Shown here: positions 654 to 4,882 of the stretch, in pieces
Layout of the letters: each line of letters begins with the position of its first letter
How positions within the stretch are numbered: the stretch's first letter is position 1
Made by a program: the position numbers and the translations under genes
Virus record (IMG/VR): IMGVR_UViG_3300036770_001629
Location: 1-24,733 of that record
Length of the DNA: 24,733 nucleotides
Direction: 5' to 3' (one strand)
Source: a virus
Notes under the pieces: generated by a model
Seen by the model: only the letters and a program-made list of their open reading frames with translations
Told to the model about the DNA's origin: nothing
The model's database searches: none

Positions 654-730
654 GCATCTACGATGTCGCCGGGATTGTGTCGATCTTTCTCTTGATCCTG
701 GCCGTCCAGCTCATTGGGCTGGGTGACTGA
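650..730 (+). CDS. 26-residue single-pass membrane peptide
   Basis: The ATG overlaps the stop of the preceding gene in an ATGA junction, and the frame runs 27 codons to TGA at 728-730. The product is almost entirely one hydrophobic segment (AGIVSIFLLILAVQLIGL) with a short polar N-terminus (MSIYD) and an acidic end. It would be a minimal inner-membrane protein. The last 20 bases overlap the 3' end of the convergent radical SAM gene. No family can be assigned to so short a sequence. The coupled start and the clean hydrophobic stretch are the only evidence that it is translated. Confidence 0.5.
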   Translation: MSIYDVAGIVSIFLLILAVQLIGLGD

Positions 731-1568
731 TTTGAACTACCGTTACCTTGTCTCGATCGCAGGCAGGGCATTGCCATGACTGATCGCAGGGGCCTGGCTC
801 GCTCCTGAGTTGGAACTCGGGATCAAACACACTGCCCAGCCGACCGATGAGCTGCTGGCGCTCCAGGATGCAACGCCAGGCAGAGCCGTCCGGCTGAACG
901 CTGATATGGTCGACCCCTCCCGAGCAGGTTACCCGCTGGCCATCTGGCCTGGGATCGAGGCCCCAGGATCGATTGGCCGCCATGAAAGGACGCAGCAGCT
1001 CCTTTTGTCGCTCGGTGTAGGTCCATGGGTAATAAGCGATCGACTGGTAGGGATCGACATGCCACCGGATCCCCTGCGCATCGAACATTCCGACCCAGTG
1101 AGGGATGAGCCAGAGCTGCTCGGGCCAGGCAACGATGTTGGCCGTGACCTGGTAGCCGAACTCCTGGAGTAGCTTGACCCGCCCGATGAAGATCTCCGGG
1201 TTCATCGGCTGCTGCTTGGTGCCGTTCTCGCTCGGGTGGAAGCTGGCCGTGATGCTGTGCACCTGGTCGGGGCTGGCCACCCGAATGAATTCTAGGATCG
1301 AGTGGGACAGATTGGAGGTGATCGACACCTTGATGGCTCGATCGAGGTGCTCCAGGATGTTGACCAGGCCGATGCCAGGCAGGAAAGGCTCTCCACCTGT
1401 GATGTCGAGGAACTGTGGCCGCAGCCGGTTCCAGACATCGAGCCAGTCTTGCCAGGGCCGGAAGGGCTCTGGCTTGAACTCGCCCCGCTCCTGGGCCTGG
1501 ACCTCCCAGCAGTATTTGCATTTGAAATTGCAGGCCATGGTGGTCCACCAGATCGCAGTCCGCAGCAT
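711..1568 (-). CDS. Radical SAM enzyme with C-terminal auxiliary cysteines (SPASM/twitch-like)
   Basis: The 285-residue protein has the canonical radical SAM [4Fe-4S] motif CNFKCKYC (Cys13, Cys17, Cys20) followed by the SAM-binding TGGEPF at 57-62. The C-terminus carries five more cysteines (215, 233, 261, 267, 270) in a CSGG...C...CxxxxxCPAC layout, as in SPASM or twitch auxiliary-cluster enzymes. Such enzymes often modify ribosomally made peptides or proteins, although others act on small molecules. It is not QueE, which has a long spacing inside its cluster motif. It is the last gene of the minus-strand run, one base after the HNH gene, in the same group as a glycosyltransferase-methyltransferase fusion. 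The substrate cannot be read from sequence. Modification of the nearby Gly-Ser or Cys-rich protein is an inference from context. Confidence 0.9.
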   Translation of the reverse strand: MLRTAIWWTTMACNFKCKYCWEVQAQERGEFKPEPFRPWQDWLDVWNRLRPQFLDITGGEPFLPGIGLVNILEHLDRAIKVSITSNLSHSILEFIRVASPDQVHSITASFHPSENGTKQQPMNPEIFIGRVKLLQEFGYQVTANIVAWPEQLWLIPHWVGMFDAQGIRWHVDPYQSIAYYPWTYTERQKELLRPFMAANRSWGLDPRPDGQRVTCSGGVDHISVQPDGSAWRCILERQQLIGRLGSVFDPEFQLRSEPGPCDQSWQCPACDRDKVTVVQISHPAQ

Positions 1569-1569
1569 T

Positions 1570-3938: not shown

Positions 3939-4415
3939 TTACCACTTTCCTTCTGGGCAGTGCTCTGTGACTCGCCTGGCCTTGTTCGTCCAGCCGTTTG
4001 ACTCGTTTACCTGGCAGCCGCACAGCTTGCACTTGCTGGCCGCCTGGTCCCACTGATCGCAAGATCGGCAGATCTTCAGGATAACCTTGACTTCCTCGTC
4101 GCTCCTTGAAGGCCTGCCCTGGGCGACCCAGTCAGCTGTGCTTTGGACATACCGCTTGACAGCCTCAGTCGCCGTGACATCGACCAAGTATGGCAGAGCC
4201 TCGGCCATTTTGTGCTGGTGTGCTTCTTTGTCATGGGTAACAAGCTTGGCCAATCCAATCGACACCGTAACCCGGTTCAGGCTGCGAGGGCTCGGGCATC
4301 CGACACACACTTTGCATGCTGCCTCTGTGACAGGTGCGGAGACACCAGCAAATTGACTTGCCACCTTGCAAAAGTTGAGTCCTTCCTGGTGCTCCAGGTG
4401 TTCGCATTCAATCAT
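3939..4415 (-). CDS. Cys-rich probable metal-binding protein with LCGC...CPxGKW ending
   Basis: The start is taken as the ATG at 4415, which forms an ATGA overlap with the stop of the Gly-Ser gene. An upstream in-frame ATG at 4448 would overlap much further. The 158-residue product has eleven cysteines in three groups: Cys4/16, CKVCVGC (34-40), and CRSC (116-119) with CKLCGC (129-134) and CPEGKW at the very end. The last part matches a recurring phage zinc-ribbon pattern, CxLCGC...K...CPxGKW, seen in proteins of unknown function that are often near glycosyltransferases. That association is from memory, not a search. It probably binds zinc. The single-base junction with the glycosyltransferase fusion suggests a shared role. 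Confidence 0.75.
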   Translation of the reverse strand: MIECEHLEHQEGLNFCKVASQFAGVSAPVTEAACKVCVGCPSPRSLNRVTVSIGLAKLVTHDKEAHQHKMAEALPYLVDVTATEAVKRYVQSTADWVAQGRPSRSDEEVKVILKICRSCDQWDQAASKCKLCGCQVNESNGWTNKARRVTEHCPEGKW

Positions 4416-4882
4416 ATAGCCTCTCCTGGTGGGACGACATTCACGCAAGCGCGGATCACTATCTCGCCCACATAGTCACCAGGTGCGCTTGGTGGCGACT
4501 GGCAGAAACATGGGCCGGATGGACAGTTCGATCCTCCTTCAACCCAGGTAGATCCATCCCACTGATAAACGCAAGGACCAGGACATCCTTGACCGGATCC
4601 GGATTCCCCAGATCCTGAGCCAGAACCAGAACCTGACCCGCTGCCGGAGCCTGTCCCGCTGCCAGAACCAGTTCCGCTCCCAGTACCTGAACCAGAACCG
4701 GAGCCACTCCCTGACCCAGATCCAGAGCCCGAGCCGGATCCCGATCCTGAGCCGCTCCCGCTGCCACTGCCGGATCCTGAACCGGAACCCGAGCCAGAAC
4801 CTGACCCGCTCCCAGAACCGCTACCAGAGCCCGATCCGGAGCCACAGCAGGGGGCACAGGACATGTCGATGGTGTAACCCAT
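4412..4882 (-). CDS. Low-complexity (Gly-Ser)n protein with Cys-rich ends
   Basis: This 156-residue protein has three parts. The N-terminus (1-13) ends in CAPCC. Residues 14-96 are an almost pure Gly-Ser alternation, interrupted only by three Thr and one Glu. Residues 97-156 form a small Cys-rich domain with CPGPC, a W-x-G-x-x-W strand pair ([12 protein letters not shown]), CPSGPCFC, a Pro-rich turn and IRAC. The tract would be a flexible, highly accessible linker with about 40 hydroxyl side chains, suited to O-glycosylation. AGGGGG lies seven bases before the ATG, inside the preceding gene. The position after the tail genes suggests a minor virion appendage or decoration protein, or a secreted product. 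Other readings are a spacer joining two disulfide knots, or a substrate of the radical SAM enzyme. Confidence 0.8.
4595..4843 (-). repeat. Gly-Ser coding tract, 83 codons, protein-level repeat
   Basis: The tract encodes alternating Gly and Ser. All four Gly codons and all six Ser codons are used in mixed order, so the protein repeat is much cleaner than the DNA repeat. That argues for long-term selection on the amino-acid pattern rather than recent replication slippage. Confidence 0.9.

Follow-up and report, generated by a model that had tools for sequence, protein, structure and literature searches.

What does a phage make with a gene run in which a protein bearing a long Gly-Ser tract is followed by a Cys-rich protein, a glycosyltransferase fused to a methyltransferase, and a radical SAM enzyme? 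The question is raised by a complete IMG/VR virus record of 24,733 bp (the window, meaning the whole stretch of DNA that was analysed), which is possibly a fragment of a larger phage genome. PHROGs recognise terminase, portal, major capsid and tape measure genes in the window, and the cassette forms the end of its minus-strand structural run. The explanation favoured here, with a probability of roughly 0.6, is that the cassette would make a tail-associated, mucin-like glycoprotein, O-glycosylated by its own transferase, with the sugar methylated by an FkbM domain and the radical SAM enzyme tailoring the glycan or its acceptor.

All features that the initial annotation had named for a cassette at 711-4882 were recovered at their coordinates on the minus strand. 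It had described one coupled run of genes; the named genes do form this run, together with an HNH gene and a 78-aa ORF that had been overlooked. Transcription proceeds from the tape measure gene through p301, p193, the Gly-Ser, Cys-rich and GT71-FkbM genes, the small ORF and the HNH gene to the radical SAM gene:

6372-8156, minus strand: tail tape measure protein (phrog_1535, E 1e-17), which ties the cassette to the tail module
5470-6375, minus strand: p301, a conserved tail-module gene downstream of the tape measure gene, also present in the distant relative L070
4885-5466, minus strand: p193, beta-rich, Cys-containing, with a Gly/Ser-rich C-terminus, always immediately upstream of the Gly-Ser gene
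4412-4882, minus strand: Gly-Ser tract protein, 156 aa, with an N-terminal MGxxIDxxxCAxCC-type cap, the tract and a C-terminal CxW module
4592-4843, minus strand: Gly-Ser/Thr tract, residues 14-97, codon-heterogeneous
4439-4588, minus strand: CxW module, residues 99-148, C-x(3)-W...W...C...CxC...G...C
3939-4415, minus strand: Cys-rich accessory protein, 158 aa (phrog_13558), ATGA-coupled to the Gly-Ser gene
2220-3938, minus strand: GT71-FkbM fusion, 572 aa (PF11051 and PF05050)
2889-3938, minus strand: GT71-like glycosyltransferase domain, about residues 1-350 (structure model and Foldseek)
2241-2864, minus strand: FkbM methyltransferase domain, residues 359-566 (PF05050)
2039-2275, minus strand: small ORF, 78 aa or shorter, present only in near-identical relatives
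1570-2052, minus strand: HNH endonuclease gene, an insertion that is missing from L007 and L008
711-1568, minus strand: radical SAM enzyme, 285 aa, with C-terminal auxiliary-cluster cysteines, the last gene of the run

The initial annotation had made the co-occurrence of these genes in related phages one test of its proposal, and co-occurrence is what was found. The fusion and the radical SAM enzyme, used as separate queries, both returned the same seven close viral contigs (L002-L008), each of which keeps the order of the window, from the tape measure gene through p301, p193, the Gly-Ser, Cys-rich and fusion genes to the radical SAM gene, as far as the contig reaches. Across them, identity is 69-100% for the fusion and 73-100% for the radical SAM enzyme, and falls to 36% for tail proteins; in L002 and L003, both enzymes are 97-100% identical to those of the window. 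Between the window and L007, identity is 36% for p193, 47% for the tape measure protein, 72% for the fusion, 73% for the radical SAM enzyme and 77% for the major capsid protein. By these values, conservation of the two enzymes comes close to that of the capsid protein. The HNH gene is present in L004-L006, and the radical SAM gene directly follows the fusion in L007 and L008. The latter arrangement indicates that the core consists of the Gly-Ser, Cys-rich, GT71-FkbM and radical SAM genes, the remaining genes being insertions. Differing DNA methyltransferase ORFs (L004, 9772-11280; L006, 3890-5158) occupy the same site between the HNH and radical SAM genes, which suggests an insertion hot spot.

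Among 392 sampled Planctomycetota genomes, the fusion occurs in one, the metagenome-assembled genome KLAP214, where it (56% identity) is followed by the radical SAM gene (61%) and where the contig end holds a stretch resembling the Cys-rich protein. On this genomic evidence, a planctomycete is the likely host of the window phage. The structure model of p193 was too weak for placement (pLDDT 54), a viral scan with its alignment returned only already known relatives, and p301 had no match in a collection of 50,697 phage records.

The central enzyme had been described as a GT71-like glycosyltransferase fused to an FkbM methyltransferase, and both domains exceed their Pfam cut-offs (PF11051, 88.5 bits against 22; PF05050, 44.1 bits against 22.7). 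Its relatives are 47-100% identical. A GT-A type DxD motif (LDADSYP, with DAD at 159-161, that is D159 and D161) is invariant in six of them, and the SAM-binding motif D-x-GAHxGxF and the VEP motif of the FkbM domain are invariant in the fusion relatives as well. The model of the glycosyltransferase domain has a pLDDT of 64, and its top Foldseek match in the PDB is yeast MNT2 (7xjv, E 1.4e-6), followed by glycogenin. The match to MNT2, a GT71 alpha-1,3-mannosyltransferase that acts on Ser/Thr-linked chains, supports the family and not the detail, as the model is moderate and the TM-scores are low. Known GT71 enzymes lengthen chains rather than begin them on Ser/Thr, and no separate initiating glycosyltransferase was found in the window record, itself incomplete. 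A tblastn search with the fusion gave no match in the 50,697 phage records, a set that may not include Che8 and Corndog. A group of FkbM-only loci (L009-L021) was discarded, having the methyltransferase domain alone in common with the fusion.

The existence of the Cys-rich protein was likewise confirmed, with its start moved from 4448 to a likely position at 4415, because the homologues begin there and the ATG overlaps the Gly-Ser stop codon as ATGA. The Gly-Ser tract stood with small corrections, being 84 residues long and not 83, with 38 serines where about 40 had been claimed (residues 14-97: 42 Gly, 38 Ser, 3 Thr and 1 Glu). Its DNA contains 37 GS hexamers in 16 different versions, and adjacent hexamers are no more similar than shuffled ones (0.616 against 0.627). 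The serine codons mix the TCN and AGY boxes, which no single silent change connects, and their use departs from that of the other window genes (p = 5e-5). This heterogeneity rules out a plain DNA repeat or slipped microsatellite as the origin of the tract and indicates that what is preserved is the peptide and not a repeat in the DNA. As a separate observation, the codons at 4592-4843 are used with unusual evenness relative to the remaining genome, as though repetition at the DNA level were selected against.

In the Gly-Ser proteins of the relatives, the MGxxIDxxxCAxCC-type start and the Cys/Trp end are conserved, with conserved cysteines at both ends, while the tract ranges from 39 to 196 residues and, apart from Gly, is made up almost entirely of Ser or Thr. 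The tract comes in distinct versions, one shared by the window, L002 and L003 and the others in L004, L005, L006, L007 and L008, with L005 and L006 near-identical. The small Cys/Trp module that ends the protein, here called CxW, has no Pfam match. Outside CxW proteins, the 1370 gene models of the retrieved loci contain no Gly/Ser/Thr tract scoring at least 25.

The radical SAM enzyme scores 30 bits against a PF04055 cut-off of 29.5, and its C13, C17 and C20 (CX3CX2C), its GGEP motif and five C-terminal cysteines are invariant in 13 homologues, in agreement with the earlier description of a radical SAM enzyme with auxiliary-cluster cysteines. It has no match to the PF13186 SPASM domain. In a profile search, the closest solved relatives were CteA, MoaA, YydG and SuiB. 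A weak match to phrog_2076 over residues 6-120 pointed to QueE (7-carboxy-7-deazaguanine synthase), an assignment that was rejected on the C-terminal auxiliary cysteines and the gene context. In the 50,697 phage records, the protein had no match. Its homologues, at about 30-57% identity, adjoin a glycosyltransferase in every assessable locus. In eight of these (L031, L032, L033, L034, L035, L037, L039 and L047; gene roles by eye, GT4 by Pfam), a GT4 lies downstream of the homologue, and the pair sits between the major capsid and head-tail connector genes. A GT25 accompanies the homologue of L030 (57%), and a GT4 lies upstream of that of L050; weaker calls concern L038, with a GT2 below cut-off, and L040 and L041, with GT9-like neighbours recognised by eye and without a Pfam match. 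Of these loci, only L030 has a tract protein. The constant neighbour is thus a glycosyltransferase, not a tract protein, which argues that the radical SAM enzyme has its role on the glycan or where the glycan is attached; its target may be the glycan, or a peptide as had been proposed initially. The eight GT4 loci belong to another phage group and sometimes also contain LicD, cytidylyltransferase or methyltransferase genes; their radical SAM-GT4 pair is a candidate capsid decoration cassette.

An alternative for this one step is that the enzyme is a RiPP-type peptide maturase, which would crosslink or epimerise the Cys-rich ends of the tract protein independently of any sugar. It is a serious contender, if a somewhat improbable one. 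The profile matches cover the SPASM part of CteA (5wgg) and include YydG and SuiB, the CX3CX2C core and C-terminal auxiliary cysteines are those of such SPASM/twitch maturases, and the tract protein has conserved cysteines at both ends. Unlike CteA, YydG and SuiB, however, the window enzyme stands without a precursor-peptide context and without PF13186, and about ten phage-type loci combine a homologue and an adjoining glycosyltransferase in the absence of any tract or CxW protein.

If the glycoprotein reading holds, the tract would be the part that carries the sugars. A CxW HMM built from five window-family modules only, run against 3792 ORFs, found L030 (E 3e-6) and L087 (3e-4), and the reversed set gave none. 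A further match, in G389 (L090/L095), falls within an ABC transporter gene, seemingly in a different reading frame, and was discarded as a false positive. Beyond the window family, four unrelated contexts combine the module with other hydroxyl tracts (poly-Ser, Gly-Thr, SSSSSP and SASVSATP), and glycosyltransferases from other families lie close by in each; CxW is constant while tracts and TRANSFERASES differ.

The first of these contexts is L030, where a protein of 624 aa has a poly-Ser/Ser-Gly tract and CxW at its end and is followed by a Cys protein, a GT25, a GT9-like gene (by eye), a methyltransferase and the radical SAM homologue. The L087 locus of genome G322 encodes a protein of 526 aa that combines SSSSSP repeats with three CxW modules and is flanked by a GT1-methyltransferase-GT2 protein and a GT2-GT31-like protein. 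The stretch (L087, 11677-18871, minus strand) is chromosomal, has no clear phage genes, and its GT1-methyltransferase-GT2-TPR neighbour is 1195 aa long. The same genome, very probably Planctopirus limnophila, carries the prophage L094, in which a tape-measure-like gene (by eye) and a 632-aa gene precede a 431-aa Gly-Thr/CxW protein and a GT2-galactosyltransferase fusion. The sister prophages L106 and L107 agree with it, and L105 is this prophage as recorded in IMG/VR. The fourth context, L103 in G394, a 79-kb phage contig, was reached through the Cys protein, whose homologue there (33%) adjoins two further tract and CxW proteins. One, of 767 aa, ends in an SSSP tract and CxW (E 3e-7); the other, of 459 aa, has about 370 residues of SASVSATP and a CxW-like end. 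Farther along the same strand follow three GT2 genes, another glycosyltransferase, a SPASM radical SAM gene and a B12 radical SAM gene, and a methyltransferase lies at the opposite contig end. Long SASVSATP or SASP repeats, strikingly like serine-rich repeat adhesins, occur in this contig, in L117 (5706-7085, minus strand) and in L114 (5797-6753, minus strand).

Counting the window family, methyltransferases are present in four of the five CxW contexts. Only the CxW module served to retrieve L087 and L094, and only the Cys protein to retrieve L103; in raw count, all three of these loci, none of them selected for a glycosyltransferase, contain one. The repeated association with unrelated glycosyltransferases is established by the sequences, as are the parts of the cassette, their families, order and conservation.

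These contexts bear directly on a second alternative, namely that the tract is a mere flexible spacer joining the two Cys-rich ends of a tail protein and that the enzymes modify p193, p301 or the capsid instead. The repeat (GS)n is the archetypal flexible linker, and the radical SAM-GT4 pairs between capsid and connector genes occur in phages without tract proteins. The distant relative L070 also favours it. There, the order p301, p193-like, Cys-rich and GT71/FkbM is retained with a fusion 47% identical to that of the window (PF11051, 70.8 bits), and a 227-aa Cys-rich protein without a tract (6833-7516) replaces the Gly-Ser protein ahead of the fusion. The 42-kb record contains neither a Gly-Ser tract nor a radical SAM homologue, which implies that the fusion does not always need the tract and can work with another acceptor. 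Nevertheless, the replacements poly-Ser, Gly-Thr, SSSSSP and SASVSATP are alike in their content of hydroxyls, not in their chemistry as linkers, and non-homologous glycosyltransferases accompany the CxW module. The spacer explanation is considered unlikely.

Still less probable is that the enzymes alter host surface glycans or a cell-surface protein, changing a receptor or excluding superinfection. Serotype-changing phage glycosyltransferases are known (cited in PMC12619734), and L087 is chromosomal without a clear phage context. Against this stand the position of the genes, directly behind tail genes and coupled to the tract gene in both the window family and the prophage, and the lack of any membrane-bound O-antigen enzyme noticed among the neighbours read. 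Sugar hypermodification of phage DNA is very improbable and was set aside on gene context: phage glycosyltransferases acting on DNA are known (cited in the same paper), but the tail-module position, the GT71, FkbM, GT25 and GT2 types and the coupling to hydroxyl-tract proteins speak against it, and no hydroxymethyl-base enzyme was noticed in the window record, itself incomplete.

Returning to the mucin-like glycoprotein, the parts of the cassette could act as follows. The Gly-Ser tract would form an extended chain in which every other residue presents a hydroxyl, with a small Cys-rich end on either side. The GT71-like domain would place a sugar on the Ser/Thr residues of the tract, or extend one already there, and the fused FkbM domain would O-methylate that sugar, giving a cap. 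The Cys-rich protein may be the partner of the tract protein, as an adaptor, chaperone or co-structural part. One more modification would come from the radical SAM enzyme, with the glycan or the site of glycosylation a more probable target than an unrelated peptide. A location in the virion is suggested because of the gene position; glycosylation itself, the type of sugar, its linkage and the radical SAM reaction are likewise predictions. The benefit might be shielding of tail proteins, binding to a receptor or polymer, or stability. The decoration role put forward by the initial annotation is therefore backed in part, by the co-occurrence and by the CxW tracts near unrelated glycosyltransferases and methyltransferases.

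Several known systems share features with this cassette. Mycobacteriophages Che8, Corndog and Myrna glycosylate their virions (Freeman et al. 2023, as cited in PMC12363180); there, as is proposed for the window, glycosyltransferases encoded by the phage modify virion proteins. In the mycobacteriophages, the glycans are on capsid and tail-tube subunits, whereas the proposed acceptor in the window is a separate tract protein. In chlorovirus PBCV-1, the A064R protein, of GT-GT-methyltransferase architecture, has been shown experimentally to build and O-methylate a sugar of the virion glycoprotein (PMC9614988), so that one viral protein combines sugar transfer and methylation domains, an activity that is predicted for the window fusion. 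PBCV-1 differs in its N-glycans on the major capsid protein, its algal host and its other transferase families, and it has neither a tract protein nor a radical SAM enzyme. The fusion resembles GT71 alpha-mannosyltransferases such as MNT2 (7xjv) in PF11051 and as its best Foldseek match, and it is unlike MNT2 in belonging to a bacterial virus and in being fused to FkbM.

Serine-rich repeat adhesins are glycosylated by transferases of their own locus, and the window likewise places a gene with a Ser-rich tract and a glycosyltransferase gene in a single run; the SASVSATP repeats in L103 look very much like theirs. These proteins of Gram-positive bacteria are O-glycosylated on Ser/Thr (PMC6973325). 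They are exported adhesins with accessory Sec and have a wall anchor and binding regions, whereas the window genes belong to a phage tail module and the tract protein ends in a CxW module; no accessory Sec component (SecA2/SecY2) was noticed among the genes that were read. The window system resembles a combination of the mycobacteriophage, PBCV-1 and serine-rich repeat systems and, as a system, is homologous to none of them. Virion glycosylation by phage-encoded enzymes is already known; what looks new is a dedicated tract protein and a radical SAM family linked to glycosyltransferases, and a literature search found no paper describing the combination of a Gly-Ser protein, a GT71-FkbM fusion and a radical SAM enzyme.

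Few virion glycosylation systems of tailed phages have been worked out, and this cassette names a likely acceptor together with its enzymes. It also presents a case in which the acceptor chemistry, hydroxyl residues, would be kept while transferases are swapped, and it links an uncharacterised radical SAM family to glycosylation. A more speculative extension, offered tentatively, is that planctomycete phages share a mucin-like virion glycoprotein system, in which CxW carries Ser/Thr tracts that can be exchanged, a Cys-rich protein acts as partner, glycosyltransferases and methyltransferases can be swapped, and a radical SAM family is dedicated to tailoring the glycan. If true, this would be the first radical chemistry on a virion glycan, as we know of no earlier case. 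The sister system in the probable Planctopirus limnophila prophage makes the idea directly testable.

Elsewhere in the window, upstream of the terminase gene, a 254-aa protein (18714-19478, minus strand) matches virion structural PHROGs and is LamG-like by eye, and a 679-aa protein (16841-18880, minus strand) has beta-domain-like stretches; both are possible additional virion decoration proteins.
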